A stretch of 64,000 nucleotides of DNA, taken from the NCBI RefSeq assembly GCF_024494645.1, contig NZ_JANHDJ010000004.1, positions 248,001 through 312,000 on the forward strand, in the 5' to 3' direction. The stretch comes from Halohasta litorea. Its GTDB lineage: Archaea; Halobacteriota; Halobacteria; Halobacteriales; Haloferacaceae. The translations under genes were made by a program, and so were the position numbers. The stretch's first letter is position 1; the number at the start of each line of letters is the position of its first letter. Of this stretch, positions 4,571-19,992 are shown in pieces. The notes beneath the pieces are model-generated. The model did no database searches, was not told the origin of the DNA, and saw only the letters and a program-made list of their open reading frames with translations.

Positions 4571-4634
4571 TTTGGGATTGTGTATGGTGTGGTGGTATTC
4601 AAATAGAAATGCGGACTACCGACGGTGTCCGACC

Positions 4635-5693
4635 TTAGGACTGCACGTATTCGTCGAACAGCGGGGCGAAATCCCGGTAGGTTTCGTAGGCACTCTGGAG
4701 GATCGCATCCGTCTCCTCGGGCGAGTTCCAGACCAGTTTGCCCTCCTCGTCGATCTCCGAGAGGTCGGCCCGGTAGTCCTCGTCCTCGTGGGCGTCTTTG
4801 AATGCCTGTTGGACGTGCTCGAACCGGTCGGGGTAGGCCTCGGCGGCCGCAGCCGAAACGTAGTAGAACTGCGTCCCGTTCGATGGGGCGTAGTTGATGT
4901 CGGTGCCGAGTTCATCGTTGATCGGCGGGGCATCGTTCGTCAGACCGGGTTCCGGGTTCTCTTCGGCGTAGATACAGAGACAGTGTGAGTCCTCCGCAAT
5001 GCTCGCGCTGTTGTAGACACTGCGTGCGGCCACATCGATCTCGCCCTGGAGGAGCGCAGTCTGGGTCGCGCCACCGCCATCGTACGGGACGATGGTGAAG
5101 TCGGCCTCTGTCGCCTCCATCAACTGGATGATCGACAGCACGTTCCGGTTCGTCGGGCCGGATGCACCGACGGTCACGCTGTTGTCGACCGAGTAGTCGA
5201 CGAGCTCCTGGATCGTCGTAAATCGGTCTTCGTCCTCGCGGACGCGGATGATCGCGGCCTCACCCGAGAGGGTGCCGAGCGGCTGGAGATCGTCGAGCGT
5301 GTACTGCGGTTCGGTGCCCTCGACTTCGTCGACGGCGATCGCCGCTGGCGTCGCAGGCGAGAGCGTCCCACCGATCCGCATGACCTCTTCGTCCTGAGCC
5401 ACGGTCGTCGCAGCCGTTCGCGTCCCCGCACCGGCCCGGTACTCGGGACTGAGATTGGCTCCGAGATACTCCTCGAAGTAGCCCTGGATCTGCCGGAAGT
5501 TCGTGTCGACGCCGCCACCCTCGGAGTACGCGTTGACGAAGGTCAGCGAACTCGGTGGGTAGTCGTCTCCACCGCCACCGCCGCCACCGTTACCGCCATC
5601 CCCATCATCGCCGCCGAGGCAGCCCGCAAGCGTTGATGCTCCGATTCCAGCACCGGTCAATTTGATGAACTGACGTCTGTTTGTACCAGTCAT
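4635..5693 (-). CDS. tctC: Tripartite tricarboxylate transporter, substrate-binding lipoprotein (TctC family)
   Basis: A 352-residue exported protein. The N-terminus has a twin-arginine signal (R6-R7-Q-F-I-K) and ends in a lipobox LAGC with Cys25 as the lipid-anchored residue, the usual haloarchaeal Tat lipoprotein design. A Gly/Asp-rich tether (about residues 27-43) follows, then a binding domain of TctC type, including VGASGPTNRN and FTIVPYDGGGATQTALLQGE. The gene is followed by tctB and tctA on the same strand. A 113-bp gap with AT-rich sequence precedes it, so it may have its own promoter in addition to any read-through from the enolase-family gene. It captures the carboxylate outside the membrane and hands it to TctAB. 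Confidence 0.93.
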   Translation of the reverse strand: MTGTNRRQFIKLTGAGIGASTLAGCLGGDDGDGGNGGGGGGGDDYPPSSLTFVNAYSEGGGVDTNFRQIQGYFEEYLGANLSPEYRAGAGTRTAATTVAQDEEVMRIGGTLSPATPAAIAVDEVEGTEPQYTLDDLQPLGTLSGEAAIIRVREDEDRFTTIQELVDYSVDNSVTVGASGPTNRNVLSIIQLMEATEADFTIVPYDGGGATQTALLQGEIDVAARSVYNSASIAEDSHCLCIYAEENPEPGLTNDAPPINDELGTDINYAPSNGTQFYYVSAAAAEAYPDRFEHVQQAFKDAHEDEDYRADLSEIDEEGKLVWNSPEETDAILQSAYETYRDFAPLFDEYVQS

Positions 5694-5806
5694 ACAGTTT
5701 GACTACAGACCCCACAGTACATATATATTTTCATTAATTATGATGTACATCTGACCTTCTCGAATGGTCAAAAATCTCGAAAAAGACCGCAACCCGCAGC
5801 CAGCCG

Positions 5807-6934
5807 TTAGTCGACGCGGTACTCTTCGAAAACGTCCTCGTCGATGTGGATACCGAGCCCCGGCTCCTCCGGCGGGTCGATGGTCCCGCCGTCCTCGACG
5901 TGGATCGCGTCGTCGTTTTCGATGTAGGGACCGGCGATGTAGGTTCCTGGATCGTCGATGTCGTCGTCGAGTACTGCAAACTCGATCAGGCGGCACTGGC
6001 GGCTTGCGGCGGCGACGTGCAAGCTGGCGGCGTAGTTAATCGCCGGGCCGAGTGCGTGGGGGACCAGTTCCTTGTCGAAGGCTTCGACGAGCCCCGCGAC
6101 GCGCATCGCGCCGGTGATCCCGCCAACGTAGTCGACCGATGGCTGGTAGATGTCCAGGGATTTGGCTTTGAGGTGATCGAGGGCGGGGTAGTGCGGCGTG
6201 TGGGTCTGATACCCCGAGATCGGGACGGTGAACTTGCGATTGAGTTCGGCCTGTCCGTCGAGGTCGGTGTGGGAGATCGGCTCTTCGAACCATTCGACCT
6301 CGTACTCGCTGGCGGTCTTGGCGACCCGCGCCGCATCGTTGTAGCTGTAGGAGGTGTTGGCGTCGATCGCCAGCCCGAAGTCATCGGGGATGTTGTCCAT
6401 GATCGTCTTGATGCGGTGTCGATCCTCCTTGATGCCGTAGCCCGCGCCGATCTTCATCGCCTGGAACCCCTTCTCGGAGAGCCAGTCGGCGTAGTCGATC
6501 AGTTCCTCGGCGGTCTTGTCGACCGGGAACGTCGCGTAGGCCTTCACCTCGTTGGTCTGGCCACCGAGCAGCTGGTAGACGGGTTTGCCCGCGTCCTTGC
6601 CTTTGATGTCCCAGAGCGCCTCGTCGATCGCCGACAGCGCACCGTAGGCTCCGGCGCGCTTGACGTGAAGGTAGAGCTCGTGCCAGATCGCCTTGACATC
6701 CTCGGGGTCCTTCCCGATGATGTGCCGCGACATGGCTTCGATGCTCTCTGCGAGGAACATGTTGTTCTCCTTCGAGCGATAGAACGATTCGCCGAATCCG
6801 GTGATTCCGGCGTCCGTGTGGACGCGAACGACGACGGAGCTGATATCCAGTTCTCGTGCGCCGACCTGTGCTGGCAACGAAGCAGCGTCGACAGCACTCC
6901 CTAGCACTGCCGTTTCAACGTCTGTGATTTCCAT
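5807..6934 (-). CDS. Enolase-superfamily (mandelate racemase/muconate lactonizing enzyme-like) protein
   Basis: A 375-residue protein with the N-terminal capping domain and C-terminal barrel of the enolase superfamily. Two metal ligands are clear: Asp191 (AIDAN) and Glu217 (WFEEP). The spacing of 26 residues matches mandelate racemase. The third ligand, expected 26 residues later, is Gln243 (ISGYQTH) instead of Glu. A candidate catalytic His293 (VPHAL) is 50 residues further, as in mandelate racemase, and Lys161 (AMKIG) lies on the Lys strand, but the first Lys of the usual K-x-K is Ala159. Family members are mostly sugar-acid dehydratases, racemases or cycloisomerases. It lies between the oxidoreductases and the TTT genes, so it probably acts on the imported acid. 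The reaction is unknown. Confidence 0.85.
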   Translation of the reverse strand: MEITDVETAVLGSAVDAASLPAQVGARELDISSVVVRVHTDAGITGFGESFYRSKENNMFLAESIEAMSRHIIGKDPEDVKAIWHELYLHVKRAGAYGALSAIDEALWDIKGKDAGKPVYQLLGGQTNEVKAYATFPVDKTAEELIDYADWLSEKGFQAMKIGAGYGIKEDRHRIKTIMDNIPDDFGLAIDANTSYSYNDAARVAKTASEYEVEWFEEPISHTDLDGQAELNRKFTVPISGYQTHTPHYPALDHLKAKSLDIYQPSVDYVGGITGAMRVAGLVEAFDKELVPHALGPAINYAASLHVAAASRQCRLIEFAVLDDDIDDPGTYIAGPYIENDDAIHVEDGGTIDPPEEPGLGIHIDEDVFEEYRVD

Positions 6935-6991
6935 CAGTACTCAACTGGCTCCCCCGGAGGATAAAATAACTATCGTTAATTGCAGTCTCGG

Positions 6992-8107
6992 TTACAGATT
7001 GGTGTGTGAGTCGACGACGATCTGGGCAGGGCCGCGCGCCCCGTAATCGGCTTTGTTGGCGGTGATGTCGACCGCCTCAGCGAACGAATCGAGTCCAGAA
7101 CGCTCGTGAGTAACGTACTCCGAAATCGAGACGCGACCGCTGGCGACGAGTTCCGCGGCGAAATCGCCCGTGTCGCGGCCCGGTCCCGTGGGCGCGATAC
7201 CGGTCACGGGGTTCTGCCACGTGACCGACTTCTTGCGGACCGCCCGCGCCGAGAAGGTCACGTCGCCGATGATGTAGCCGACTTGGACGACCGTCCCACC
7301 AGCCTTGACCGCGCCCATCGCCTGTGCAATCGGGTCGCTGCCGTCGGTCGCGTGCGACTGGTCGCCGCCGACGGCCTCGAAGACCACATCCGCGCCGACG
7401 CCGTTCGTGTGGGCCGTGATTTCCTCGACCGGATCACAGCCGGTCGCGTCGATCGGATCGAGGCCGCGCTCGGCCGCGATATCGAGCTTTTTGGGGTCGA
7501 CATCGGTGACGAACACCCGCTCGGCCCCCTCTGCAAGCGCGAGTTGGGCACACTGGTAGCCCATGACGCCGGTGCCGATGACCGCGACGATATCACCCGA
7601 CTGAATTCCGCTATCGCGGACACAGAGTACCGAACTCGCCAGCGGTTGGAGCGCGGCGACCTCCGCGTCCGACAGCGAGTCGGCCACCGGCCGCAAGGCC
7701 TCGGCGGGCAGCGCGGTATACTCGGCGAGCGCGCCGGGAATGTCGTAGCCGATGTACGTCTTCGACGGGCAGTATCGCTTGAAACCCGACTCGCAGTACG
7801 AGCACTCCCCACAGGGGATCTTGCCGGGCGCATAGACACGGTCGCCGACCGCGAGGTGGTCGACGTTTTCGCCGCGTTCGACGACGGTGCCACAGAACTC
7901 ATGACCAAAGAGTCGCGCCGGGCCCTCGGCCAGCCGGGCGGCGACCGACTCGGCGTGAGCGATCGATTCGCCCTGAAACAGGGCACACTCGGTCACACTG
8001 AGTTGGACGCGGTGGATTTCGAGCAGGACTTCGTTGGCGTCGGGGGTCGGGCGGTCGACGTCTTCGACACTCCACGCGCCAAAATCGTGACAGACGACGG
8101 CGCGCAT
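6992..8107 (-). CDS. Zinc-dependent alcohol dehydrogenase
   Basis: A 371-residue medium-chain dehydrogenase. Catalytic zinc ligands are visible as Cys41 and His69-Glu70 (GHEFCG). The structural zinc site is complete: Cys99, Cys102, Cys105 and Cys113 (CGECSYCESGFKRYC). A Rossmann motif (VIGTGVMG) is followed by an acidic residue at the end of the next strand (VTDVD), which favours NAD over NADP. The gene follows the SDR gene with a one-base gap and precedes the enolase-family gene by 57 bp, so all three are probably one transcript. It likely oxidises a hydroxyl group of the pathway intermediate, like the threonine/sorbitol/L-idonate dehydrogenase group. Confidence 0.92.
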   Translation of the reverse strand: MRAVVCHDFGAWSVEDVDRPTPDANEVLLEIHRVQLSVTECALFQGESIAHAESVAARLAEGPARLFGHEFCGTVVERGENVDHLAVGDRVYAPGKIPCGECSYCESGFKRYCPSKTYIGYDIPGALAEYTALPAEALRPVADSLSDAEVAALQPLASSVLCVRDSGIQSGDIVAVIGTGVMGYQCAQLALAEGAERVFVTDVDPKKLDIAAERGLDPIDATGCDPVEEITAHTNGVGADVVFEAVGGDQSHATDGSDPIAQAMGAVKAGGTVVQVGYIIGDVTFSARAVRKKSVTWQNPVTGIAPTGPGRDTGDFAAELVASGRVSISEYVTHERSGLDSFAEAVDITANKADYGARGPAQIVVDSHTNL

Positions 8108-8108
8108 C

Positions 8109-8909
8109 TCAGATCACGCCGTCGAGCCAGCCGCCATCGACGCGGAGGACGTCACCGGTGATGTAGCTCGCCCGCGGCGAGGCGAGGTAGGCGACCGCGT
8201 CGGCGAACTCCTCGGGCTGGCCGGGGCGGTCGAGCAGCACCTCGTCGGTCCGGCTCTGGAGGGCTTTTTCGATGGAGATGCCGCGGTGGTCGGCCCGGCG
8301 CTGGACCTTGTACTCGATCCGCTCGGTCATCACGAACCGCGGGGTGACGCAGTTGGCTCGCACGTCGGGGGCGTACTCCTTGGCAATCGTCTTCGTGAGG
8401 CCGTAGAGCCCGAGCCGGAAGACGTTCGAGATGGCGTGGTTCTCCGGTGGCTCGCGGGCCGACGCGCTCGTGACGGTGACCAGCGAACCGACCTCGCTGT
8501 CGACCAACTCGGGCAGGGCGGCCTCCGAGAGCATGACGTTGCTCTTGATGACGCCCTCGTAGGAGTCGTCCCACTGCTGTTCGCTGGCGTCTTCGAGGGT
8601 GACCGCCGGTGGGCCACCGTGGTTGTTGACCATGATATCGAGGCCGCCGAACGTCTCGACGGTTTGCTCGATTGCGGCTTCGATCTGTTCGCGGTCGGTG
8701 ATGTCGCAGGCAACCGCGAGCACGTCGTCGGGATCGACTGAGTCGTGTTTCTCACAGAGTCGATCTTTCGCTTCGGCGGCGCGCTCCTCGCTTCGGGAGG
8801 TGACGACGACGTTCGCACCCTCTCCGGCGAGGCGGGCGGCGCTCGCGAAGCCGAGGCCCTGGCTTGATGCAGCTACAAAGGCAGTTCTGTCGACCAGTTC
8901 GAGGTCCAT
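8109..8909 (-). CDS. SDR family oxidoreductase with atypical active site
   Basis: A 266-residue short-chain dehydrogenase. The cofactor loop is AASSQGLG (residues 13-20), where the first glycine of the normal TGxxxGxG is replaced. NNHGGP (95-100) stands for the usual NNAG, and the C-terminus VDGGW is canonical. The catalytic Ser is in TVTSAS (about 148), but the Tyr-x3-Lys expected 12-14 residues later reads Ser161-x3-Arg165. A YGLTK (169-173) lies further on, at an unusual spacing. This looks like the subfamily with an AREP-x-N segment after the Ser. It is the first gene of the minus-strand island and shares its upstream region with a divergent MFS gene. Substrate unknown. Confidence 0.88.
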   Translation of the reverse strand: MDLELVDRTAFVAASSQGLGFASAARLAGEGANVVVTSRSEERAAEAKDRLCEKHDSVDPDDVLAVACDITDREQIEAAIEQTVETFGGLDIMVNNHGGPPAVTLEDASEQQWDDSYEGVIKSNVMLSEAALPELVDSEVGSLVTVTSASAREPPENHAISNVFRLGLYGLTKTIAKEYAPDVRANCVTPRFVMTERIEYKVQRRADHRGISIEKALQSRTDEVLLDRPGQPEEFADAVAYLASPRASYITGDVLRVDGGWLDGVI

Positions 8910-8953
8910 ACAGTCCGGAATGGCGAGGTCAGCATAAAGCTACGCCCCGAACA

Positions 8954-8979
8954 TCCACTGAAACACATAAATCAGTGGA
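8954..8979. promoter_or_regulatory. Inverted repeat in divergent promoter (candidate operator)
   Basis: A perfect inverted repeat, TCCACTGA - 10 bases - TCAGTGGA, lies between the SDR gene (minus) and the MFS gene (plus). The spacer holds a TATA-like ACATAAA about 27 bases before the ATG at 8995, so a protein bound here would cover the MFS promoter and could also affect the SDR promoter. I did not find this half-site elsewhere. The cognate regulator is unknown; the IclR protein at 11763 has a different site at its own promoter. Confidence 0.6.
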
Positions 8980-8994
8980 GCGGAACTACCGCGT

Positions 8995-10266
8995 ATGCGC
9001 CTCTCAGTCTCGGGGTTCTCCCTCGCTGCCGCCAGGCGGGCGATCAGGACCTACGATCTCGTGCTTTTAATCGCCCTGCTGTGGTTCATGGTGCAGTTTC
9101 TCCGGTTCGTCTTTCCCCCGCTGTTCGGGACCTTCCAGGAACTCTACGGCGTCTCGAACACCCAAACCGGCCTGCTGTTTACCCTCTTGATGCTCGGCTA
9201 CTCGGCGATGCAGTTTCCCGGCGGCCTGCTGTCGGACCGGTTCCACGAGGTCACGGTTATCGTCAGCGGCGCGGGGCTGTTCACCGCGGCGGCGCTGTTT
9301 ACGTTCGTTGCGCCGACTTTCGGGCTGATCACGCTCGCGGCGGTCGGGATCGGCCTCGGCACCGGCGTCCACAAGACGGTCGCCATCGCCTACCTCTCGC
9401 GGGTCTACCCCGAACGCACGGGCCTGAGTCTCGGGATCATGGATACCGTCGGCCAGTTCGGGGGGATGCTCGCGCCCATCGCCGTCGTCGCGGTACTGGG
9501 CTGGGGCCTGCCGGGACGGACGGTCTTCCTGCTCGGTGCAGGAGCCAGCGCGGTGCTGGCAGTGTTGCTCTACCTCCGCGCGAAACCCCACGCGAACGGC
9601 GGGCCACAGCAGGAATCGGTCACTGTGGAGGCAACAAACGGCGGGTCGACCGACGCGACCGAAGAGACCGACATCGACCACTCCGAGGACGGCCCGACTG
9701 TCGACAGTCACTCCTACGTGACGATCTTCACCGACCGGAAACTCGTCTTGTTTCTCTGTGTAACCGTTCTCTTTACGTTCTCCTGGAACGGCCTTTCGGC
9801 GTTCTTTCCACTCTTTTTGGCCGACGCGAAGGGGCTCTCGTCGGGCACAGCGGGGATCGCCTACAGTCTGCTGTTCGCCGCGAGCGTCAGCCAGACCGTC
9901 ACCGGCGGCGCGAGCGACCGGGTCGGTAAACTCGCCATCTCGCTTTCCCTCTTCGGTGTCATGATCGCCGGACTGCTCGCGCTGCTCGTCGTCGATTCAG
10001 TCGCTGCCATCCTCTGTCTCACAGTCCTCACTGGGATCGGCTTCCACGGCTTCCGGCCGGTGCGCGACTCCTATCTCATGGACCTCATCCCGGATTCCAT
10101 CGGCGGCGGTACCCTCGGCATCGTCCGGACGTTCATGACTGCCATCGGCGGCGCAGCCCCCGCGGTCATCGGCCTGCTGTCGGATCTCTTCGGCTACACG
10201 GTCGCCTTCGGGCTGATCGTCTGCGCACTTGCCGTCGGCGGCCTGTTTATCGCGGTTTTGCGCTGA
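8995..10266 (+). CDS. MFS transporter
   Basis: A 423-residue protein with 12 predicted membrane helices in two halves. They are joined by an acidic linker at about residues 195-240 (ATEETDIDHSEDG). The loop after TM2 has GGLLSDRF, the MFS signature. The ATG at 8995 is about 27 bases after a TATA-like ACATAAA, consistent with a leaderless transcript. It is divergent from the SDR-ADH-enolase operon and followed by the MmgE/PrpD and IclR genes, so it probably moves a substrate of that pathway. It differs clearly from the MFS at 697-2097. Substrate unknown. Confidence 0.88.
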   Translation: MRLSVSGFSLAAARRAIRTYDLVLLIALLWFMVQFLRFVFPPLFGTFQELYGVSNTQTGLLFTLLMLGYSAMQFPGGLLSDRFHEVTVIVSGAGLFTAAALFTFVAPTFGLITLAAVGIGLGTGVHKTVAIAYLSRVYPERTGLSLGIMDTVGQFGGMLAPIAVVAVLGWGLPGRTVFLLGAGASAVLAVLLYLRAKPHANGGPQQESVTVEATNGGSTDATEETDIDHSEDGPTVDSHSYVTIFTDRKLVLFLCVTVLFTFSWNGLSAFFPLFLADAKGLSSGTAGIAYSLLFAASVSQTVTGGASDRVGKLAISLSLFGVMIAGLLALLVVDSVAAILCLTVLTGIGFHGFRPVRDSYLMDLIPDSIGGGTLGIVRTFMTAIGGAAPAVIGLLSDLFGYTVAFGLIVCALAVGGLFIAVLR

Positions 10267-10347
10267 TATCCTGTTTTTCGTGTCAGTTTTGAATGATTGG
10301 ACGATTATACACGTATGTTTATGTATGTCTCCACATAGAGTAGATGT

Positions 10348-11700
10348 ATGGCCGAGACAGCCACGCTTGCAGAGTACACCGTCAGTACCACCTACGACGA
10401 GATTCCGACAGACGCGGTCGACCACGCCAAACGGGCCATCAGAGACTATCTGGGAGTTGCCGTCTATGGCTCGCACCACGAGGTCGGCGACCAGATCATG
10501 GGCTACGTCGACCGGTGTATGCCGGGCGAGGAAGCCACCGTGATCGGCCGAGAGACGGCGAGCCCGACGGGGGCGGCACTCGCTAACGCGACGTTCGGCC
10601 ACGCGATCGACTACGACGATACCTTCGAGTCGATTGTCATTCATCCCTCCTCGCCGGTCTTCGGTGCGACGCTCGCCGCGGGTGAGGTGGCGAATGCCAG
10701 TGGGGAAGAACTGATCACCGCCTACACCGTGGGCTGTGAGGCTGCCTACCGCGTGGGCCACAGCACCTACCCGAACCACTACCAGAACGGCTGGCACAGC
10801 ACCGGTACCGTCGGGACGTTCGGCTCGGCGGCAGCAGCAGCCCACCTCCTGGACCTATCGGTCGACGAAACCATCACCGCCTTCGGGATCGTCGCTTCGG
10901 CCTCCTCGGCGTTGAAAAAGAACTTCGGCAGCATGACCAAACCGCTGCACGCGGGTCACGCCGCCGAAAACGGGGTTCGGGCTGCGCTGCTGGCCGAGAA
11001 CGGTTTTACCGCCGACAACGAGATTTTGGAGGGCAAGATCGGCTACGGGGAAGTGATGACAACCGACGGCTCCTACGACCCCGAGATCATCACCGAGGGC
11101 CTCGGCGAGGAGTGGGCCGTCCTCGATCTCGGCTTCAAACCGCATCCCTCGGGCGTGATCACCCACGCCGCGATGGACGCCCTGCGGACGCTCGTGATCG
11201 ATCACGATCTGACGCCGGAGTCGGTCGACTCGATGACGGTCGCCCTCGACGACGCGGCCTCCGAGATGCTCCACCACGCGAACCCGGACAATGCGCTCCA
11301 GGCCAAATTCTCCATCGAGTTCTGTCTGGCCGCCATTCTCCGCGAACGGAAGGCGGGCATCCACGAGTTCACCGACGAGTACGTCAGCCAGCCCGAGACC
11401 GCGGCAGTGATCGACAAGATCGACCGCGCCTTCGAGGAGAACCTCTTCGATGCCCACTACGCGAGCTACGGCGCGCGCGTCACCGTCGAGACGACGGATG
11501 GCGAAACGCTCGTCCAGGAGGTCAAACACCACCCCGGCAGCCCGAACAACCCAGTCAGCGAAGAACGGCTCCGGGCCAAGTTCGACGAGTGTGTGCTGAC
11601 AGTGCTCGACGACGACGGGACCGACCAGCTCGCCGAGACTATCGACGCGCTCGAAGACGTCCCATCGGTCGAGAACCTCGTCGACAAACTCCAGCCATAG
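10348..11700 (+). CDS. MmgE/PrpD family protein
   Basis: A 450-residue protein of the MmgE/PrpD family, which includes 2-methylcitrate dehydratase, cis-aconitate decarboxylase and iminodisuccinate epimerase. Seen motifs are NATFGHAIDYDDTF (the family N-A-x-x-x-H-x-x-D-[FY]-D-D), HPSSPVFGATLA and the Lys-rich region FGSMTKPLHAGHAAENG. Length is typical. An AT-rich promoter (TTTATGTATG about 30 bases upstream) precedes the ATG at 10348. With the citrate-synthase paralogue in the same island, methylcitrate dehydratase is possible, but the wide range of reactions in this family and the lack of prpB-like methylisocitrate lyase nearby leave the role open. Confidence 0.9.
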   Translation: MAETATLAEYTVSTTYDEIPTDAVDHAKRAIRDYLGVAVYGSHHEVGDQIMGYVDRCMPGEEATVIGRETASPTGAALANATFGHAIDYDDTFESIVIHPSSPVFGATLAAGEVANASGEELITAYTVGCEAAYRVGHSTYPNHYQNGWHSTGTVGTFGSAAAAAHLLDLSVDETITAFGIVASASSALKKNFGSMTKPLHAGHAAENGVRAALLAENGFTADNEILEGKIGYGEVMTTDGSYDPEIITEGLGEEWAVLDLGFKPHPSGVITHAAMDALRTLVIDHDLTPESVDSMTVALDDAASEMLHHANPDNALQAKFSIEFCLAAILRERKAGIHEFTDEYVSQPETAAVIDKIDRAFEENLFDAHYASYGARVTVETTDGETLVQEVKHHPGSPNNPVSEERLRAKFDECVLTVLDDDGTDQLAETIDALEDVPSVENLVDKLQP

Positions 11701-11741
11701 GGCGGCGACAGCGACGGTCACCCGAGACATACCTTTATTTT

Positions 11742-11758
11742 GTTCGTCGACAACGAAC
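11742..11758. promoter_or_regulatory. GTTCGT-N5-ACGAAC site at IclR promoter (candidate autoregulatory operator)
   Basis: A perfect 6+6 inverted repeat with spacer CGACA. It lies between a TATA-like CTTTATTTT (11732-11740) and the ATG of the IclR gene at 11763, which appears leaderless. Binding here would block transcription initiation, so autorepression is the simplest reading. Three more perfect copies follow at 13080, 13458 and 15992. Confidence 0.75.
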
Positions 11759-11762
11759 GCAT

Positions 11763-12530
11763 ATGAGCAACCCCGCAGACAGCCGGTCGGTGAAGTCGAC
11801 GCGAACGACGTTCCGTCTCATCGAGGCCCTCGAAGCGAACGACGGTGCGCGGCTCACTGATCTCGCGGACGAACTGGGGCTGGCAAAAAGCACCGTCCAC
11901 CAGCAGTTGTCGGCGCTGGTCGACCTCGGCTATGTACTCAAAGAGGACGGCCAGTATCAGTTAGGCCTGAAGTTTCTCGACTTAGGTGCATATGTTCGCA
12001 CGCGCAAGCGCGCGTACAACCTCGCCGAGCCACACGTCGAACAGCTGGCCACCGAGACCGGCGAACGAGCCCAGTTTATGACCGAAGAACACGGCCAAGC
12101 AGTCTACGTGCACACGAAACAGGGCGAACACGCCGTTAAGGCCGACCGGCGAGTGGGCAAGCGGCGATACCTCCATTCCAGCGCGGGTGGGAAGGCGATC
12201 CTCGCCCACTTTCCCGAAGCTCGGATCGAGGCTGTCATCGACCGATGGGGGCTCCCTCAGGAGACCGACAACACCCACGCGACCCGCGAGTCGCTGTTCG
12301 AAGATCTCGAAGCGATCCGCGAGCGGGGCTACAGTATGAACAAAGCCGAGTCGATCAGCGGGCTCTGGTCGGTCGGCGTCCCGGTGATGGGGCCCGAAGG
12401 GACGCCCGTGGGTTCGTTCAGCGTGTCCGGTCCCAGACACCGGATGAAGGCCGAACAGTTCCACGAGGAGACGGTCGATCTGCTGCTTGGCACCGCAAAC
12501 GAGCTCGAACTGAACATTGAGTATTCCTGA
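11763..12530 (+). CDS. IclR family transcriptional regulator
   Basis: A 255-residue regulator. Residues about 10-75 form a winged helix (TTFRLIEALEANDGARLTDLA, then LAKSTVHQQLSALVDLGYV). About 80-250 form the IclR effector-binding domain (GKRRYLHSSAGGKAILAHFPE, SGLWSVGVPVMGPEG, GSFSVSGP). The open frame extends far upstream through the MmgE/PrpD gene, but the ATG at 11763 is chosen because it follows a TATA-like box and starts directly before the family's N-terminal helix. A perfect inverted repeat, GTTCGT-N5-ACGAAC, ends 4 bases before the ATG. As the last gene of the plus-strand arm, it is the likely local regulator, responding to a small organic acid as is usual in this family. Confidence 0.93.
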   Translation: MSNPADSRSVKSTRTTFRLIEALEANDGARLTDLADELGLAKSTVHQQLSALVDLGYVLKEDGQYQLGLKFLDLGAYVRTRKRAYNLAEPHVEQLATETGERAQFMTEEHGQAVYVHTKQGEHAVKADRRVGKRRYLHSSAGGKAILAHFPEARIEAVIDRWGLPQETDNTHATRESLFEDLEAIRERGYSMNKAESISGLWSVGVPVMGPEGTPVGSFSVSGPRHRMKAEQFHEETVDLLLGTANELELNIEYS

Positions 12531-12581
12531 CTTTTCAGTCGACGTATACACTTATTCCGATACCCCGCAAAGAACGAGTGT

Positions 12582-12995
12582 ATGGTAATACTCGCAGCAG
12601 TTAGTGACACTGAGACGGACGAATCGATCGTCGCCGAAGCCGCGCGGCTCGCCGAGGCCTTCGACGACGAACTCCACGCGGTCTACGTCCAGACGTACGA
12701 CTCGCTCAACGAGGCCGAAGCGGATTCGACGGACGAGTCGATCAAACAACGGGCGGCCGCGACGGCGGAGGCGGCCACCGAGGGCCTCGATGTCCCAACC
12801 GTTCCGGTGGGACGTATCGGGGAGCCAGCCGCCGAGGTCCTGGAGTACGCCGAGACGGTCGAGACGCGGTACATCGTTATCGGCGGCCAGAAGCGGTCGC
12901 CGGTCGGCAAGGCCCTGTTCGGAAGCACGACACAACAGATCCTGCTGGGTGCAGAGCTGCCCGTCCTCACTGTAATGGGACACGGCGACGAGTAA
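12582..12995 (+). CDS. Universal stress protein family (UspA)
   Basis: A 137-residue single-domain UspA protein. The ATP-binding type motif G-x2-G-x9-G-[ST] is visible near the C-terminus (GGQKRSPVGKALFGST), followed by the strand LPVLTVM. It begins 51 bp after the IclR gene with its own AT-rich upstream sequence. A T-run (13008-13018) follows as a likely terminator. Its position between the IclR and PEP synthase genes may be chance, as UspA genes are scattered in haloarchaea. A second UspA gene is at 52551-53024. Confidence 0.9.
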   Translation: MVILAAVSDTETDESIVAEAARLAEAFDDELHAVYVQTYDSLNEAEADSTDESIKQRAAATAEAATEGLDVPTVPVGRIGEPAAEVLEYAETVETRYIVIGGQKRSPVGKALFGSTTQQILLGAELPVLTVMGHGDE

Positions 12996-13007
12996 CGACG
13001 CGGGCTG

Positions 13008-13018
13008 TTTTTTTTTTT
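13008..13018 (+). terminator. T-run terminator after uspA-like gene
   Basis: Eleven consecutive T residues, preceded by GGGCTG, 13 bases after the stop codon of the UspA gene. Archaeal RNA polymerase terminates at such U-tracts without needing a hairpin. Confidence 0.7.
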
Positions 13019-13079
13019 ATACGGGATCGGACTCCCAGTGCGTGAGGGCCGTGTCGGTACAACAGCCACAGCGGCCAGT

Positions 13080-13096
13080 GTTCGTCAGGAACGAAC
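13080..13096. promoter_or_regulatory. GTTCGT-N5-ACGAAC site, PEP synthase upstream region (distal)
   Basis: Perfect 6+6 inverted repeat with spacer CAGGA, about 510 bases before the PEP synthase ATG and about 85 bases after the UspA gene. It has the same arms as the site at the IclR promoter. Distance from the pps start suggests looping, or control of an unseen transcript in the region. Confidence 0.7.
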
Positions 13097-13457
13097 TAAG
13101 ATGTAACACGTGTTTCCTGTTGGATCGACCTACCGCTATTCATAATGAATATTTATATTTAATAAGTGGGCGAACGCGACTCATCAGCGAAGCACCGATA
13201 CACGCTCGCCGAGAGAACCGGTCGATCACGGTATTCGTTACTAGCGAACTATTGAGCGACATATATATTACAACCATATGTTTGTAACACAATCTGAGCT
13301 ATTCGATTGCCTCGCTGGCAGTCGTGATCCATGTCGAGTGTTCACAGACCTCTAACAGCCCAGAATGGATACTGTATCTGCGTAGTCTGAGATCGTTCGA
13401 ACCGTCAGTGGTTGCATCGAACGCCGAGCGGATCGAAGGCCGAGTGTAGGCGGCGCT

Positions 13458-13474
13458 GTTCGTCAAGAACGAAC
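13458..13474. promoter_or_regulatory. GTTCGT-N5-ACGAAC site, PEP synthase upstream region (proximal)
   Basis: Perfect 6+6 inverted repeat with spacer CAAGA, ending about 130 bases before the PEP synthase ATG and roughly 90 bases before the best TATA-like box. A regulator bound upstream of the TATA element would more likely activate than repress. Confidence 0.7.
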
Positions 13475-13602
13475 TCCACCGTTGTCAGCCGACAGCGCAT
13501 CCGTCGATTGATGTTTTTACTCCCAACTGAGTGTCTATCTATCCAACATTATAGTTAACAATAGATTCATATGGAAGCTACTGAATTGGACTCCTACAGT
13601 CC

Positions 13603-15882
13603 ATGAGTATCCAATGGCTCGAAGACATCCGGTCGACCGACCTTCCGACAGTCGGAGGGAAGGCGGCTTCGCTGGGCGAACTCACCGACGCTGGCCTGCC
13701 CGTTCCGCCGGGGTTTGTCGTCACCGCAGCCACCTACCGGAGGTTCCTGGAGGGGGCCGAGATCGACGCGGAACTGTTCGCCACACTCGATGTCGACCCG
13801 GATGACGCCAGGGGCCTCGCGACGGCAGCCTCGCAGGCACGCGAGCTCGTCATCGAGACACCCCTCCCGGAGGCCCTCGTCGAGGAGATCATCACCGCCT
13901 ACCGGGAGCTGGCGGGTGACGACGAGCCGGTCGCCGTCAGATCGTCGGCGACCGCCGAGGACCTCCCGGAGGCCTCCTTCGCGGGCCAACATGAGACGTT
14001 CCTCAACGTGACCGAGGATGACCTCGTCGACCGGCTCAAAGAGTGTTGGGCCTCGATGTTCACCGAACGGGCAGTTCACTACCGGAACGAACAGGGGTTC
14101 GACCACAGCGAGGTCGACATCGCGGTGGTCGTCCAGCGGATGGTCGACGCCGACAAATCGGGCGTACTGTTCACCCGTCACCCCTCGACAGGCGACCGAG
14201 AGATGATTGTCGAGGCCGCCTGGGGACTCGGCGAAGCCGTGGTCTCCGGAACGGTCTCGCCGGACCACTACGTGATCGATCCCGAGACCGCAACCATTGT
14301 CGAATCGACGATCGCCGACAAGAAACAGCGGATGGTCAAAGACCCCGAGACCGGCGAGACGACGCTCCAGCCGGTCCCCGACGAGGACCGGACGACACGG
14401 GTGATCACCGACGAGGAACTCGAAGCGCTCGTCGAACTCGGTCGGCGCGCCGAGTCCCACTACGGCGAGCCACAGGACATCGAATGGGCCATCGTTGAGG
14501 GTGACGTCTTCATGCTCCAGTCGCGGCCGATCACGACGATCACCGAAAACGACGCCGAAGACGTAGCCGACAGCCCGGAGGACCGCGATGGTCAACCGGG
14601 CGACGACGTACTCGTTCGTGGCGTCAGCGCGAGCCCCGGCACCGGGACGGGAGCGGTCCGGATCGTCAGGAAGCTCGATCACCTCGATCAAGTGACCGAC
14701 GGTGACGTCATCGTGAGCAAGATGACGATGCCGGATATGGTCCCCGCAATGAAACGGGCCGGAGCTATCGTCACCGACGAGGGCGGGATGACCTCCCATG
14801 CCTCGATCGTCTCCCGCGAGATGGGCGTCCCTGCGGTCGTCGGCACGCGAAACGCGACCGAGGTCCTGGAAAACGGCCGGACGGTGACCGTCGACGGCGA
14901 GATGGGAACCGTCCGCGAGGGAAGCCCGACGGAGGACGAAGCCGCGATCCAGCCCGATCCGCTCGAAGCGGTTCGACCACAGACGCCGGTCAAACCGATG
15001 ACCGCCACGGAGGTCAAGGTCAACCTCTCGATTCCCGAGGCTGCGGAACGTGCGGCCGCCACCGGGGCCGACGGCGTTGGCCTCTTGCGGATCGAACACA
15101 TGGTGATCTCGCTGGGCAAGACGCCCGAGCAGTACATCGCCGACCACGGCGAGGACGCTTACATCAGCGAGCTCGTCGACGGCATCCGAACGGTCGCCGA
15201 GGAGTTCTATCCCCGGCCGGTCCGGGCCCGCACGCTCGATGCGCCGACCGACGAGTTCCGCGAACTCGACGGCGGTAGCGACGAGCCGCACGAACACAAC
15301 CCGATGTTGGGCTACCGGGGAATCCGCCGGAGCCTCGATAAACCCGAACCGTTCCGCTGTGAACTGCGGGCCTTCGACCGGCTCTTCGAGATGGGTTACG
15401 ACAACGTCGAACTCATGTTACCGCTGGTCAACGATAGCGAAGACATCGACCGCGCCAAGACGCTCATGGAAGAGGTCGGCATCGACCCCGCGAAAGCCCG
15501 CTGGGGCGTGATGGTCGAGACGCCCGCCAGCGCGTTGTTGATCGAAGAGCTCGCGGCCACGGGCATCGACTTCGTCTCCTTCGGCACCAATGACCTCACC
15601 CAGTACACCCTCGCAGTGGACCGAAACAACGAACACGTCGTCGACCGGTTCGACGAACTCCATCCCGGCGTCCTCAAGCTGATCGAATCCACGATCGAGA
15701 CCTGCCGCGAACTCGGGGTCGACACCAGCATCTGCGGACAGGCCGCCTCCAAACCGGCGATGGTCGACTTCCTCGTCGAACAGGGGATCTCCTCGATCAG
15801 CGCGAACATCGACGCCGTCCAGGACGTCCAACACGAGGTCAAGCGCATCGAGCAGAAACTGCTGCTCGACTCGGTTCGATAG
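13603..15882 (+). CDS. ppsA: Phosphoenolpyruvate synthase (pyruvate, water dikinase)
   Basis: A 759-residue enzyme that makes PEP, AMP and phosphate from pyruvate and ATP, the entry to gluconeogenesis from pyruvate. Domains in order are an N-terminal nucleotide-binding domain (about 1-320: VGGKAASLGEL, VAVRSSATAEDLPEASFAGQ), the swivelling phosphohistidine domain with His399 (EGGMTSHASIVSREMG), and a C-terminal PEP/pyruvate barrel (GVMVETPASALL, SFGTNDLTQYTLAVDR, catalytic Cys711 in CGQA). Length is typical. The ATG at 13603 follows a small hairpin directly. Two candidate operators lie upstream and one downstream, suggesting control by the nearby IclR protein. Confidence 0.97.
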   Translation: MSIQWLEDIRSTDLPTVGGKAASLGELTDAGLPVPPGFVVTAATYRRFLEGAEIDAELFATLDVDPDDARGLATAASQARELVIETPLPEALVEEIITAYRELAGDDEPVAVRSSATAEDLPEASFAGQHETFLNVTEDDLVDRLKECWASMFTERAVHYRNEQGFDHSEVDIAVVVQRMVDADKSGVLFTRHPSTGDREMIVEAAWGLGEAVVSGTVSPDHYVIDPETATIVESTIADKKQRMVKDPETGETTLQPVPDEDRTTRVITDEELEALVELGRRAESHYGEPQDIEWAIVEGDVFMLQSRPITTITENDAEDVADSPEDRDGQPGDDVLVRGVSASPGTGTGAVRIVRKLDHLDQVTDGDVIVSKMTMPDMVPAMKRAGAIVTDEGGMTSHASIVSREMGVPAVVGTRNATEVLENGRTVTVDGEMGTVREGSPTEDEAAIQPDPLEAVRPQTPVKPMTATEVKVNLSIPEAAERAAATGADGVGLLRIEHMVISLGKTPEQYIADHGEDAYISELVDGIRTVAEEFYPRPVRARTLDAPTDEFRELDGGSDEPHEHNPMLGYRGIRRSLDKPEPFRCELRAFDRLFEMGYDNVELMLPLVNDSEDIDRAKTLMEEVGIDPAKARWGVMVETPASALLIEELAATGIDFVSFGTNDLTQYTLAVDRNNEHVVDRFDELHPGVLKLIESTIETCRELGVDTSICGQAASKPAMVDFLVEQGISSISANIDAVQDVQHEVKRIEQKLLLDSVR

Positions 15883-15991
15883 GAACCCGCGAGCACCACT
15901 CTTAGAGTGTTTCGGAGATCGATCCGGCGGCAGTCGCCTTGCTCGTAGAACCCGTCAACCACGGTCGTCTGGGACGGTAGCAGCGAAAACA

Positions 15992-16008
15992 GTTCGTCAG
16001 TAACGAAC
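15992..16008. promoter_or_regulatory. GTTCGT-N5-ACGAAC site between converging genes
   Basis: Perfect 6+6 inverted repeat with spacer CAGTA, 109 bases after the PEP synthase stop and 88 bases before the stop of the converging SMC-like gene. It is not at a known promoter. It may serve an antisense or small transcript, act as an auxiliary site for looping, or be a decoy. Confidence 0.6.
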
Positions 16009-16053
16009 CAGAGGGTTGCGTTCGAGACTCACACGGCGGACTGCTGCGACTTG

Positions 16054-16075
16054 TGAAACAGGGTACTTTGTTTCA
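16054..16075. repeat. Inverted repeat between converging genes
   Basis: TGAAACA - 8 bases - TGTTTCA, a perfect 7-bp inverted repeat 22 bases before the end of the SMC-like gene. It may form a hairpin in the 3' ends of the converging transcripts, or be a protein site. No T-run follows on the plus strand. Confidence 0.45.
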
Positions 16076-16096
16076 AAAGAGCGATCCAACGTGCGC

Positions 16097-17941
16097 TCAG
16101 GCGGGTGCCGGATCTCGGTCGGAGACGACATCCCACTCGTCCGGTGAAATGATGTGTGCCTCGAAGTCGCCAGCTTCGGGGTAGGCGGTGGTGACGAGTA
16201 TCTCGGTGGTGGCTTCGAGATACTCGATGAGCTTCCGGAGGTGTGCCGATGCGAGTTGGCTGATCCCATCGATCAGGACGATCGGCGTGCGGTCCTCGAC
16301 ATCGTAGACCCGATACCCTGCGAGTGCGACGGCGACGCCGATGAGTTCGACTTCGCCCTCGCTGAGGGCGTCGACGGTCGTCTGCCGACCGTCACGTGCG
16401 ATGTTGAGTTCGAAGCCCTCGATCTCTCCCTGCGGGTCGGTTCTGATATCGAAGCGCGCGTGATCGAATCCGGGGGCAAAGCGGTCGATGATCTCGCTGA
16501 CTGCCGTATCGAACGCCGCTTTGAGTTCGTACTGTGTCTCGGTTTTGCGGGTCCGTAACGATTCGATCTCGGTTTCGTACCCGGCTTGTTGTTCACGGAG
16601 CCCCTCCAAATCGCTCTTCCGGTCGTCGAGTGTATCGAGTCGCTCACGAGCCTCGTCGAGTCGGGCCGCTTTCGTTCTGATCTCCGTTTTTACGTCAGTC
16701 AGTGTTTCAGTGTACTGGCTTTCAGTGGTATCGAGTTGGTCGGCAAGCGCCTGGATTTCGTCTTCCAGGGCGTCCCGTTTCGAGAGGTATGTCCGACGTT
16801 CTCCGTTCAGGTCCTGTATCTCCGCGCCGAGCTGTTTTCTCTCCTGTTCGAGCCGGTCGTGTTGGCTCCGCCGCTGTTCGATCAGTCGTTGCTGTTGGTT
16901 GTACTCCGTAATGTCTTCCTGGAGGTCGTTCGTGTCTGCTCTCAGTTGTTCGATCGTCTGTTGCATAGCTTCGAGACGACCACTCAGCTCGCGTTTCGTG
17001 GATTCCTTGCCACAGAGCCAGCACGTAATGTCGTCTCCAGAGACTGTCCGAGAGACATCGGTTATGCGGTCGAGATCACCGTCTTCCAGCATGTTTCGAT
17101 TGGCGTGGTACAGATCCTCGATGAGGTGGATCTGATCGCGCAACGCGGCGATTCGCTGTTCTCGTTTTTCGACATCGATCGAGTCGACGGGTTCGGAGGG
17201 GACCGTCAGTTCGTCGAGTTCCGACTGTTTGTCGGCTTTCCGTTCGGTCGTTCGCTCGATCCGGTTTTCGATTCGTTCGATTTTGTTTTTCACCGTTTGG
17301 AGGCGGCTTTTCGATGAACTGAGTTGATCACTCGGATCGCCTTTCTGCAGGTCGTCGACACGTTCCTGTTGGAGTTCGTCTCTGCGCGCTCGAAGCGATT
17401 CGAGTTCGGTTGTAAGCTGTGTTACCTTTTCTTGGACAGCAGGGAGTTCGGCTGCTGCAGTTTCGGCAGTGTCGATTCGTGCGTCGACAGCGTCTCGCTG
17501 CTCTTTTAGCGTCCGAATCTGAGCATCGATATCTTCGAGCTCAAGCGGGGCCTGTAAATATTCGGTGAGGTCCTCGCCGTTTCGTACCGCCCGTCGGATC
17601 GGATTGTCTTCGCCGAGGAACGCGAACAGTCGAGCAGACACCTGGTCGGTGTCCGTCGCGAGATACGGTGTTCCGGATCGGACTGGACGCTCCCCCTGCT
17701 CACGGGTAACCGTGACCGCATACGAGTCGGAATTGGTCTCCAGGACGACCGAGCCGGTGTCTTCGCCCTCAGTGAGGAGATGGTCGCCGTAATGGCCGGT
17801 CGCACCCATGACGGTCCGTATCGACGCTATAAAACTCGATTTGCCCTGAAAATTAGAGGCCTGAACGACGTTCAACCCCGGCTTGACCGTCGCTGACCCG
17901 GACCGAATACCGGCGATATTCTCGATAGAGACTGTTTTCAT
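16097..17941 (-). CDS. Archaeal SMC-related/Rad50-like coiled-coil ATPase (Sph3-like)
   Basis: A 614-residue SMC/Rad50-type protein. The N-terminus (MKTVSIENIAGI) leads to a variant Walker A, ASNFQGKSS (28-36). A long coiled coil (about 130-480) follows, with a Cys307-x-x-Cys310 zinc hook (CWLCG) at its middle. At the C-terminus come a signature-like LSEGE and a Walker B-like strand ending in Asp558-Gly559 (VLIDGI), without the usual catalytic Glu. The ATG at 17941 is preferred over the GTG at 17950 because a TTTATC box lies about 28 bases before it. It follows an RdfA-type gene by 69 bp. This pairing is known in haloarchaea; in Haloferax volcanii rdfA and a neighbouring SMC-like gene lie in a cell-shape locus. 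Its role here is inferred. Confidence 0.85.
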   Translation of the reverse strand: MKTVSIENIAGIRSGSATVKPGLNVVQASNFQGKSSFIASIRTVMGATGHYGDHLLTEGEDTGSVVLETNSDSYAVTVTREQGERPVRSGTPYLATDTDQVSARLFAFLGEDNPIRRAVRNGEDLTEYLQAPLELEDIDAQIRTLKEQRDAVDARIDTAETAAAELPAVQEKVTQLTTELESLRARRDELQQERVDDLQKGDPSDQLSSSKSRLQTVKNKIERIENRIERTTERKADKQSELDELTVPSEPVDSIDVEKREQRIAALRDQIHLIEDLYHANRNMLEDGDLDRITDVSRTVSGDDITCWLCGKESTKRELSGRLEAMQQTIEQLRADTNDLQEDITEYNQQQRLIEQRRSQHDRLEQERKQLGAEIQDLNGERRTYLSKRDALEDEIQALADQLDTTESQYTETLTDVKTEIRTKAARLDEARERLDTLDDRKSDLEGLREQQAGYETEIESLRTRKTETQYELKAAFDTAVSEIIDRFAPGFDHARFDIRTDPQGEIEGFELNIARDGRQTTVDALSEGEVELIGVAVALAGYRVYDVEDRTPIVLIDGISQLASAHLRKLIEYLEATTEILVTTAYPEAGDFEAHIISPDEWDVVSDRDPAPA

Positions 17942-18010
17942 CCCACTCACAGTTCAGACTATGATATGATAAAGGAGGGGGCTCGTATGGGGACAGTCCA
18001 CGCGAGGATG

Positions 18011-18646
18011 CTACTCGTCGGCGGTCATATGGTCTTCACAAATATAGCCCCGGTTGTGGGATTGGAGAATCGGTGAGCGCTTGGAACAGACCGGACACTC
18101 GACGGAGATGTCGACCGAGACTGTCGCTGCTGTGGCCTCCGGGAGTTCGCCCTTGTTCTCCCACGACCGTAGAACGTCTTCGGCGCGGTCCCTTGCCATC
18201 CGTTTTGCGTATCGAATCTTGTCTGCTTCCCACCCCGTGTCGCTGCTGCCCCGTTGGGTTTCCTTCCCGACATCGAGACACTGTGTGAGATGCCGATAGA
18301 GCGATGACGTCGAGATCAGATCATCAACAACCGTTCCCGCATCGATGCCATCCTGTTCGAGATCATCGACAACGAGCTGTCGGCGACCCTCGTCATCACC
18401 GACGAGCGCGTCGTAATCCGCTTCGATCTGCGGTTCGAGCGTTTTTCTGTCGTGTTTCGTATAGACGGCGCTCAGCAGTTTCCGGTTGAACCAATCGGTC
18501 AACGGTCGGAGGGCGGTGTTCGGCTGGCTCCCCTCACCAAGCCACTTGTTCGCCAGGAGGACATCAATACTGTCCGCGAGAACGTGCTCGGAAATCCCGT
18601 AGTCGGCTGTGACCCGACTCAGCTTACAGCAGTTGTCTGATGTCAT
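18011..18646 (-). CDS. RdfA family protein (rod-determining factor-like)
   Basis: A 211-residue protein with the N-terminal layout of the haloarchaeal RdfA family: CCKLSRVTADYGISEHVLADSI, then a LADYF-like segment PLTDWFNRKLLSAVY. A helical middle follows, then a C-terminal zinc-binding element with Cys184, Cys187, Cys203 and His206. RdfA in Haloferax volcanii is needed for rod-shaped cells; other family copies are uncharacterised. It precedes the SMC-like ATPase gene on the same strand, so the two are likely cotranscribed. The start is the ATG at 18646. Upstream lies an unusually long gene-free stretch. Identification is from recalled family features rather than alignment. Confidence 0.75.
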   Translation of the reverse strand: MTSDNCCKLSRVTADYGISEHVLADSIDVLLANKWLGEGSQPNTALRPLTDWFNRKLLSAVYTKHDRKTLEPQIEADYDALVGDDEGRRQLVVDDLEQDGIDAGTVVDDLISTSSLYRHLTQCLDVGKETQRGSSDTGWEADKIRYAKRMARDRAEDVLRSWENKGELPEATAATVSVDISVECPVCSKRSPILQSHNRGYICEDHMTADE

Positions 18647-19524
18647 GGGTTGATTCGATCCAGCAGTCGCACCAGGTCTCCTGGATACTTATTCATATTG
18701 GTAATACTGTCTCTCGGGACGTATTCGACCCGATGGTCGACGACACGGTTGGTAGCTGCTCGCAACATTCATAAGATATCGTACCTATTTAAATTCCTGA
18801 TTCACAGCCGGATCTCGCTGCTACCGACGAGACTGCCGCCAATAGTAGTGGAGATAGTATTGTGAGTTTTACACAATTCTAAATGGCAGTAATCCGTTTC
18901 GAGTGTCGACCGCTTCTGAACACAGGGTGCCGAACTAACTATGAGAATTCTCCTCGAAATCGTCGGAAAAACAGCTCTTCGAAGGGTTTCGATGAAGACA
19001 TCGACGCGTAATATACTCGTCCGCTATCGATCAGGACTAGTCAGCCGAGATGATCGAATCTGCCGGAAAACGGTATAAAAGCGGTCGAAACCTCAAAGCA
19101 CCGACTCGGTCGTATTCGGTTTGATGGGTTGTCAGTCGGAGAAATCTGCAGACGGTTGTGAGTTATAAATACAATATACTACTCAGGAAAACCTGTTATC
19201 TCCTCGGTTTATCATTCGGTAGCCAAGGAGGAGTTGGGTAGACTGTACCGATAATACCAGAATAGTTATAATAAATTCATCGGGCGAGTCGGGCTCGACA
19301 GACGCCCGCTGCTAGCCGACAGTTGTCCGTGGTTCGGTACCCATCGTAAACGGATCGCTTCCAGGAGGATCGGTCATCGGCTGGTGGCCGAGGTATCGGT
19401 TGGTTGCCGGGCAGGCAGTTTTCGACGGATTGGTGACCGACTACGTCGGCCCCCGGCGTTCCGAACGACAGCTGTCCTGACCCGATATCCAATGGCTTTT
19501 CCGCCTGTCGCCCCTCATTGACGT
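18647..19524. other. Long intergenic region upstream of rdfA-like gene
   Basis: About 880 bp with lower GC than its surroundings and no convincing gene. Short open frames exist but have no haloarchaeal acidic composition. A good TATA-like GGTATAAAAG lies near 19069-19078 on the plus strand. Downstream, a 14-codon frame beginning ATGGGTTGTCAG at 19124 contains two Cys codons, too short to call. The last 70 bases before 19525 hold the FKBP promoter. A non-coding RNA or remnants of decayed genes are possible. Confidence 0.5.
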
Positions 19525-19992
19525 ATGACGATTGCTACTGGTGACTCCGTCACCCTCGAATACACGGGTCGACTCGACGATGGCACGGTTTTCGACAGTT
19601 CGCGCGAATCGGTCGCCGAAGAGGCGGGCCTCGCCGAGGCCCAGCCGGACCGCGAGTACGCACCGCTGACCGTCGAGGTCGGGGCGGGCGAGGTCATCGA
19701 AGGGATGGAAGAGGGACTGATCGGTCTCGACGAAGGCGAAACCGAGACGCTCGAAATCCCACCCGAGAAGGCCTACGGCGAGTGGAGCGAAGAGCACGTC
19801 CAGGAGTTCGATACCGACGAACTCGTCGAGATGCTCGGCCAGACGCCCCAGGAAGGGGCGTTCCTGGAAGCCCAGAACGGCCAGCACGGCGAAATCATCC
19901 ACGTCGACGACGAGGTCGTCCGCGTGGACTTCAACCCCGATCTCGCGGGCGAAACCCTCGAATTCGACGTCGAGATCGTCGACGTCAACTGA
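19525..19992 (+). CDS. FKBP-type peptidyl-prolyl cis-trans isomerase (SlyD-like)
   Basis: A 155-residue cytoplasmic prolyl isomerase of the archaeal short FKBP/SlyD type. The FKBP domain starts with GDSVTLEYTGRLDDGTVFDSS and GAGEVIEGMEEGLIGLDEGE. It is split by an insert-in-flap chaperone domain (about residues 75-130, including AYGEWSEEHVQEF) and closes with the strand EFDVEIVDVN. These proteins assist protein folding. No signal peptide is present. The gene stands alone with a short spacer to the glutaredoxin-like gene downstream. Confidence 0.93.
   Translation: MTIATGDSVTLEYTGRLDDGTVFDSSRESVAEEAGLAEAQPDREYAPLTVEVGAGEVIEGMEEGLIGLDEGETETLEIPPEKAYGEWSEEHVQEFDTDELVEMLGQTPQEGAFLEAQNGQHGEIIHVDDEVVRVDFNPDLAGETLEFDVEIVDVN

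Follow-up and report, generated by a model that had tools for sequence, protein, structure and literature searches.

Gene pairs that join an RdfA protein to an SMC-like ATPase of the ASRP family are already a known kind (Yoshinaga 2022; Schiller 2024), and the known sph and rdfA mutants have conflicting effects on shape, swarming and gene conversion. Haloferax strains deleted for rdfA or sph3 form only disks (PMC10869688; for sph3 also PMC11276520), deletion of sph2 gives rods, deletion of sph1 leaves the shape normal, and each of the four sph deletions, sph1 included, lowers survival in a gene-conversion assay, with sph2 and sph4 not jointly deletable (PMC11276520). Within the RdfA family, a role in rod formation is known only for HVO_2174 (PMC10869688). 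Here we describe an RdfA-ASRP pair at positions 16097-18646 of a 64,000-nucleotide stretch of the Halohasta litorea genome (contig NZ_JANHDJ010000004.1, positions 248,001 to 312,000; hereafter the window) and compare it with its relatives. Three results are new here: haloarchaeal ASRPs as a rule lack the catalytic glutamate that follows the Walker B aspartate, the two proteins of a pair co-evolve and are exchanged as a unit, and the pairs are linked to IclR-family regulators. The missing glutamate and the IclR linkage give handles on what the pairs do.

The gene pair in the window

The pair and the motifs of its ATPase are as follows.

18011-18646, minus strand: rdfA-like gene, 211 aa; helical protein with a C-terminal zinc ribbon (C184-x2-C187 ... 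C203-x2-H206) and an N-terminal CCK motif
16097-17950, minus strand: SMC-like ATPase gene of the ASRP/Sph1 type, 617 aa when read from the GTG at 17950; the ATG at 17941 is the likely start
17834-17848, minus strand: Walker A, QGKSS (residues 35-39 from the GTG)
17012-17023, minus strand: zinc hook, CWLC (residues 310-313 from the GTG)
16265-16267, minus strand: Gly codon where the catalytic Glu would follow Walker B (G562 from the GTG, G559 from the ATG)

The rdfA gene lies upstream of the ATPase gene on the same strand with a spacing of 60 bp, and both family matches are full-length: the protein of 18011-18646 matches the RdfA model PF21811 over residues 7-201 with 114.9 bits (gathering cut-off 27), and that of 16097-17950 matches the ASRP model NF045487 over profile positions 1-593 with 411 bits (NCBIfam cut-off 300). 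A preliminary description of the locus had proposed an RdfA-type protein with a zinc element of its own, a partner ATPase with a Rad50-style CxxC hook, and conservation of the two together. These proposals are borne out by the two model matches, the C-terminal CPVC...CEDH zinc ribbon, the CWLC hook, and the co-divergence and adjacency described below; of the contrary outcomes named beforehand, a protein at 18011 outside the RdfA family and a pair not conserved together, both were examined and neither was found. The overall interpretation given there is partly supported.

The pair has a GC content of 57.2% against 63.2% in the window. An orthologous pair is present in a congener (genome G003), with 63% identity for the ATPase, 66% for RdfA and left neighbours identical in kind. 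Purifying selection acts on both genes, the ratios of nonsynonymous to synonymous substitution rates against that orthologous pair being 0.21 and 0.14 for the two genes and 0.12 for the adjoining PpsA gene.

Of 292 Halobacteria genomes, 260 encode RdfA, with a maximum of six per genome, and residues C184, C187 and C203 of the zinc ribbon, together with K8 and W35, are invariant across 74 homologues. The AlphaFold2 model of the window protein (mean pLDDT 89, pTM 0.63) has a confidently predicted helical core and, at the C-terminus, a small zinc ribbon. A Foldseek comparison of this model with the PDB gave no fold match (best E 2.2), and a sequence-profile search found no solved relative.

The catalytic glutamate position in haloarchaeal ASRPs

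We surveyed motifs in 125 non-redundant pairs from 144 stretches (143 fetched loci, labelled L, and the window). The tree of haloarchaeal ASRPs splits into two supported clades, class I and class II, and the window protein belongs to class II. All 58 class I proteins have the Walker A sequence GxNATNRTS, in which NR replaces GK, the signature LSESE, and Ser right after the Walker B Asp. In class II, GK is intact wherever Walker A was located, the signature is LSEGE, and Gly follows the Walker B Asp in 49 of 68 proteins; at this position the others have Asp, Arg, Gln, Ser, Asn and, in one case, Glu (six further class II sequences with extended starts were counted apart, one of them having Glu). 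The window protein has the LSEGE signature and a Walker B of the form VLID-G, with the Asp present and the next residue not Glu. The preliminary description had pointed to Gly559 in place of the usual Glu, which is the correct residue in ATG numbering; as a peculiarity of this one protein it is rejected, because Gly is the class II norm. The hook reads C(W/F)xC in 65 of 68 class II proteins and CWLS in three. A paralogue in the genome of the window (L043, 10502-12358; G000:C31) is of the CWLS kind and, with CxxC replaced, may not bind zinc at its hook.

Of the ASRPs examined from outside the haloarchaea, the three closest (L182, L184 and L187) retain both GK and Glu, and three that are more remote carry Asp or Asn at the Glu position; the haloarchaeal clade therefore seems to have lost the Glu secondarily. 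Within that clade the absence of Glu is the rule for the family. We found no mention of this loss in the literature searched, which is not proof that none exists; the ASRP paper reports Walker A and B as present (PMC9389158). Because nearly all of these ATPases lack the catalytic Glu, and those of class I also the Walker A Gly-Lys, we predict that they are clamps or switches and not motors.

Co-divergence and exchange of the pairs

The genome that contains the window has six RdfA and six ASRP genes, and every RdfA gene adjoins an ASRP gene. Protein distances of RdfA and ASRP are correlated with a Mantel r of 0.94 in class II and 0.88 in class I, values reached by no permutation, and the nearest relative of every RdfA lies within its own class (0 cross-class cases), which speaks against partner mixing. 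In 70 of 74 class II pairs RdfA precedes the ATPase gene in the same orientation, frequently with a 4 bp overlap; class I has RdfA first in 26 pairs, the ATPase gene first in 12, convergent genes in 17 and divergent genes in 2, the two genes still being neighbours. Schiller et al. reported adjacency in 42 of 54 cases (PMC10869688), which our counts repeat and extend. Among the exceptions, Haloplanus ruber has two tandem RdfA genes upstream of a single ATPase gene (L051, 5615-7119), the second of them 869 bp before the ATPase gene, and the high-scoring RdfA genes at L131, L134, L143, L147, L149, L160, L161, L164, L173 and L178 have no ASRP gene closer than about 9 kb.

Exchange of whole pairs can be seen at a Halohasta site flanked by an IclR gene and a gene for an HpcH-type aldolase, where one species (G001) has a class I pair (L046, 8878-12085) and two others (G002 and G003) have a class II pair (L048, 9152-12201). 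The right flank of this site is alignable in all three genomes (80-87% identity) and the left flank between G001 and G002 (73-80%). The position of the pair in the window is a different case: the block of IclR, universal stress protein and PpsA genes to its left (9709-15882) lies in G001 at 679794-686066 without the pair and with other genes next to it, and the block from 19486 (FKBP onward) lies elsewhere in G001, which places the pair at a rearrangement junction. Gain of the pair in the window and loss of it in G001 cannot be told apart from this comparison. That the RdfA protein and its ATPase co-evolve and are exchanged as a unit is, in our data, an observation.

Linkage to IclR regulators

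Three groups of genes lie to the left of the pair in the window.

2437-11700, unstranded: catabolic cluster with a TctA/TctC transporter, an enolase-superfamily enzyme, an alcohol dehydrogenase, a short-chain dehydrogenase/reductase and MmgE/PrpD
11763-12530, plus strand: IclR-family regulator of the catabolic cluster (PF01614, 111 bits), 3.6 kb from the pair
12582-15882, plus strand: universal stress protein gene and phosphoenolpyruvate (PEP) synthase-like gene, between IclR and the pair; conserved in G001, where the pair is absent

A second PEP synthase-like gene is present in the same genome (G000:C29:58294-60665), parts of it 77-86% identical in DNA to 13603-15882.

IclR is the commonest neighbour family around the 125 pairs (31 loci), and its members are concentrated beside the pair, 27 being immediately adjacent, followed by 2, 5, 1 and 2 at ranks 2-5; ABC ATPases, a common family, show a flat profile (4, 9, 5, 6 and 9 at ranks 1-5). 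In a sample of 22 whole genomes with 49 RdfA and 110 IclR genes, 12 of the 49 RdfA genes have an IclR gene at a distance of 3.5 kb or less, where uniform placement would give 0.56, and none of 200,000 simulations reached 12. TrmB genes served as a control in ten genomes: they are about twice as common as IclR genes, and none of 31 RdfA genes has one within 8 kb, whereas 12 of the 31 have IclR within 3.5 kb, a comparison that tests specificity and not effect size because the ten genomes were chosen partly for showing linkage. A general effect of accessory regions is rejected as the source of the linkage, since TrmB shows none and the ABC ATPase profile is flat.

In G002 the sole IclR gene and the sole RdfA gene of the genome are 394 bp apart. 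The linked IclR proteins are diverse (median identity 35%, 12 gene orders), and parsimony requires 14 changes in adjacency to IclR on the ATPase tree. The simplest reading is that the linkage arose repeatedly and independently, as far as the gene positions and trees suggest; no paper found in our literature search mentions an IclR link to RdfA-Sph pairs. Other class II pairs adjoin purine/molybdopterin, amidohydrolase or permease genes. Two uncharacterised proteins without a Pfam match also recur near class II pairs, one of about 270-280 aa that starts MATIRVRDWTKEQIERIRD (L068, 11195-12034, and 16 other loci, at most four genes from the pair) and one of about 300 aa (L111, 9879-10814, and 12 other loci, at rank 1 in 10).

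Proposed function

What might such a pair do? We tentatively favor, at somewhat less than even confidence, a reading in which the RdfA-Sph1 module works as a DNA clamp that is locked by ATP and paired with a zinc protein, and in which its expression is tied to the neighboring IclR-type catabolic cluster. Two ASRP chains would join at the hook and their heads would close on ATP around DNA; hydrolysis would be slow or absent, giving a long-lived clamp, and RdfA may bind the ATPase and serve, through its zinc ribbon, as its adaptor or release factor. Such a clamp would influence what happens to the chromosome (in Haloferax, gene conversion), and with some paralogues it would also bear on whether cells become rods or disks. 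The tie to the catabolic cluster is the least certain step for the copy in the window. Paralogues may serve as nutrient-specific versions of one module.

Several points weigh against this reading. The IclR gene in the window is 3.6 kb from the pair with two genes between, which makes the window a weak example of the linkage, and only a minority of class II pairs has an IclR gene nearby (10 of 68 within 7 kb). The linkage could also stem from shared residence in accessory catabolic islands and not from regulation, and about 10 of 60 high-scoring RdfA loci have no ASRP nearby. An ATPase that has lost the catalytic Glu can in some cases remain active, and our literature search found no biochemistry on any ASRP.

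If the pair instead serves chromosome-copy maintenance, it would be a recombination or gene-conversion factor with no metabolic link. This is unlikely in our estimation: the lowered gene-conversion survival of all four Haloferax sph deletions and the failure to delete sph2 together with sph4 are what it would lead one to expect (PMC11276520), and it leaves unexplained both the IclR linkage and the turnover and swapping of paralogues.

An extension of the clamp reading to the whole family is more doubtful than the reading itself. RdfA-Sph pairs in general might be chromosome clamps that are exchangeable and coupled to metabolism, with every paralogue belonging to a catabolic cluster of its own, of the IclR type or another. 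In each, a hydrolysis-deficient, ATP-locked SMC-like protein would translate the presence of a particular nutrient into a state of the chromosome, and this state would set shape, motility or gene conversion. Because the IclR linkage is far beyond chance, the phenotype of a paralogue would be predicted to appear only on the right substrate, and such substrate-dependent phenotypes could explain why paralogues behave differently. The position of the pairs right beside a nutrient-sensing regulator, IclR, in many species points to a possible connection, open to experiment, between nutrient supply and control of the chromosome or of cell shape.

The Sph1 subtype and cell shape

In the tree, the window ATPase and Halobacterium salinarum Sph1 (43% identical) belong to the same supported clade of nine members, and Haloferax Sph1 stands in a separate subgroup from Sph2-4 in published trees (PMC11276520), from which we also took the class of HVO_A0180 (H. 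volcanii pHV4). The window protein has none of the class I marks (GxNATNRTS, LSESE, Ser after Walker B), although the placement of Sph3 in class I follows only from its published Sph2-4 subgroup. The window copy is of the Sph1 type and not of the Sph3 type, which determines cell shape in Haloferax. The statement in the preliminary description that the related Haloferax locus affects shape is true of rdfA-sph3 but does not transfer directly to this copy, and the phenotype should not be carried over without a test, because the copy is of the Sph1 type and the Haloferax sph1 deletion keeps its shape. Its suggestion that such copies may act on DNA is reasonable.

A cell-shape switch like that of Haloferax RdfA-Sph3, in which the pair would directly promote rods and motility, is accordingly improbable here. 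The disk-only rdfA and sph3 deletions (PMC10869688) argue for such a switch, as does the report, seen as a citation in PMC10869688, that overexpression of Halobacterium Sph1, the nearest characterised relative, gives rods in Haloferax. Membership of the Sph1 clade and the wild-type shape of the Haloferax sph1 deletion (PMC11276520) argue against it, and no ddfA-like arrangement is seen beside the pair, whose flanking genes are PpsA and FKBP, in an inspection that included no ddfA-specific search.

Plasmid copies and a pair outside Halobacteria

An ASRP relative is found in 131 plasmid records. Outside Halobacteria but within the same phylum, L182 (5476-8151; G312:C2, a contig of 163,915 bp) has an RdfA-ASRP pair with the ATPase gene first and with GK and Glu kept, and its RdfA scores 35.7 bits against the PF21811 cut-off of 27; the contig is possibly a plasmid of a halophilic methanogen. 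Could the pair then be a partition-like maintenance module of secondary replicons or islands, carried along with accessory catabolic genes? The plasmid records, the L182 pair on its 164 kb contig and one pair near orc1/cdc6 are consistent with this. We nevertheless regard it as very unlikely, in that many copies reside on main chromosomes and are linked to IclR, genomes contain up to six, and a centromere-like repeat array was looked for near the window pair and none was seen.

The upstream stretch

The region upstream of rdfA is divided as follows.

18647-19485, unstranded: AT-rich intergenic stretch that separates the divergent rdfA and FKBP genes and stops at a synteny break; no homologue found
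19486-19524, plus strand: start of a conserved core block (FKBP promoter region), common to other Halohasta genomes

The preliminary description had noted a long, gene-free, low-GC stretch of about 880 bp. The gap from rdfA to the FKBP start is indeed 878 bp and the GC content of 18647-19485 is 50.2%, but the length is ordinary, being at about the 75th percentile of class II (median 545 bp) and near the class I median of 748 bp, with percentiles that are based on rough gene calls. A noncoding RNA is rejected, an Rfam search at E up to 1 having given no match; the repeats in 15800-19600 look like chance matches; and a conserved element was likewise set aside, since neither the plasmids nor the fetched loci contain a homologue except of the last 39 bp, which belong to the FKBP block. 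Divergent promoters and a synteny break explain the stretch, so that no special element is needed.

Comparison with known systems

The AlphaFold2 model of the window ATPase (mean pLDDT 86.5) has predicted heads and coiled coils that match Rad50, SMC, MukB and Lamassu LmuB in Foldseek, with TM-scores that are low, probably because of the flexible coiled coil. LmuB is a zinc-hook ATPase of about 650 aa with its Glu replaced (PMC10586767), and the window ATPase is alike in size, in hook, in the replaced Glu and in its Rad50-like heads. These likenesses, a 70-bit match to the PADLOC LmuB model (which has no curated cut-off and which other tested ASRPs match similarly) and the patchy, swapped distribution of the pairs would be the grounds for seeing in the pair a Lamassu-like antiviral or anti-plasmid defence system. 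We consider this extremely unlikely and reject Lamassu membership: the LmuA and LmuC partners are absent, the neighbours being PpsA and FKBP; RdfA has no Foldseek match to LmuC in the LmuACB structures deposited in the PDB, its fold matching no known structure; among 119 sampled near neighbours, which are mainly metabolic, PADLOC matches are few and mostly generic ABC ATPases; and the ATPase belongs to ASRP and not to LmuB. Viral carriage is rejected as well: viral contigs yielded no relative of the ATPase, and phage records yielded no RdfA. The defence role raised in the preliminary description thus found no support, and the resemblance of the ATPase to LmuB is one of mechanism, in the hook and the replaced Glu, and not of system.

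Rad50 has the same zinc-hook coiled-coil ATPase fold, but the window ATPase reaches 35.6 bits against a Rad50 model cut-off of 1087, has no adjoining mre11 and lacks the catalytic Glu. Sulfolobus coalescin ClsN is likewise an ASRP with a zinc hook (PMC9389158); it differs in that no RdfA partner is reported and in its occurrence in Sulfolobales that lack SMC. The H. volcanii rdfA-sph3 pair (HVO_2174-HVO_2175) comprises both families in adjacent genes, and differs in that Sph3 is in the Sph2-4 subgroup, a shape phenotype is known and ddfA lies beside it (PMC10869688, PMC11276520). H. salinarum Sph1 and RdfA on pHSAL1 (HBSAL_RS11975-RS11980) share with the window pair, besides the 43% identity of the ATPase, an rdfA gene directly upstream on the same strand and an adjoining catabolic cluster with IclR, there IclR-arcABC; the cluster itself is another one, its IclR gene is 0.6 kb away as against 3.6 kb in the window, and a site-specific integrase stands on the other side.

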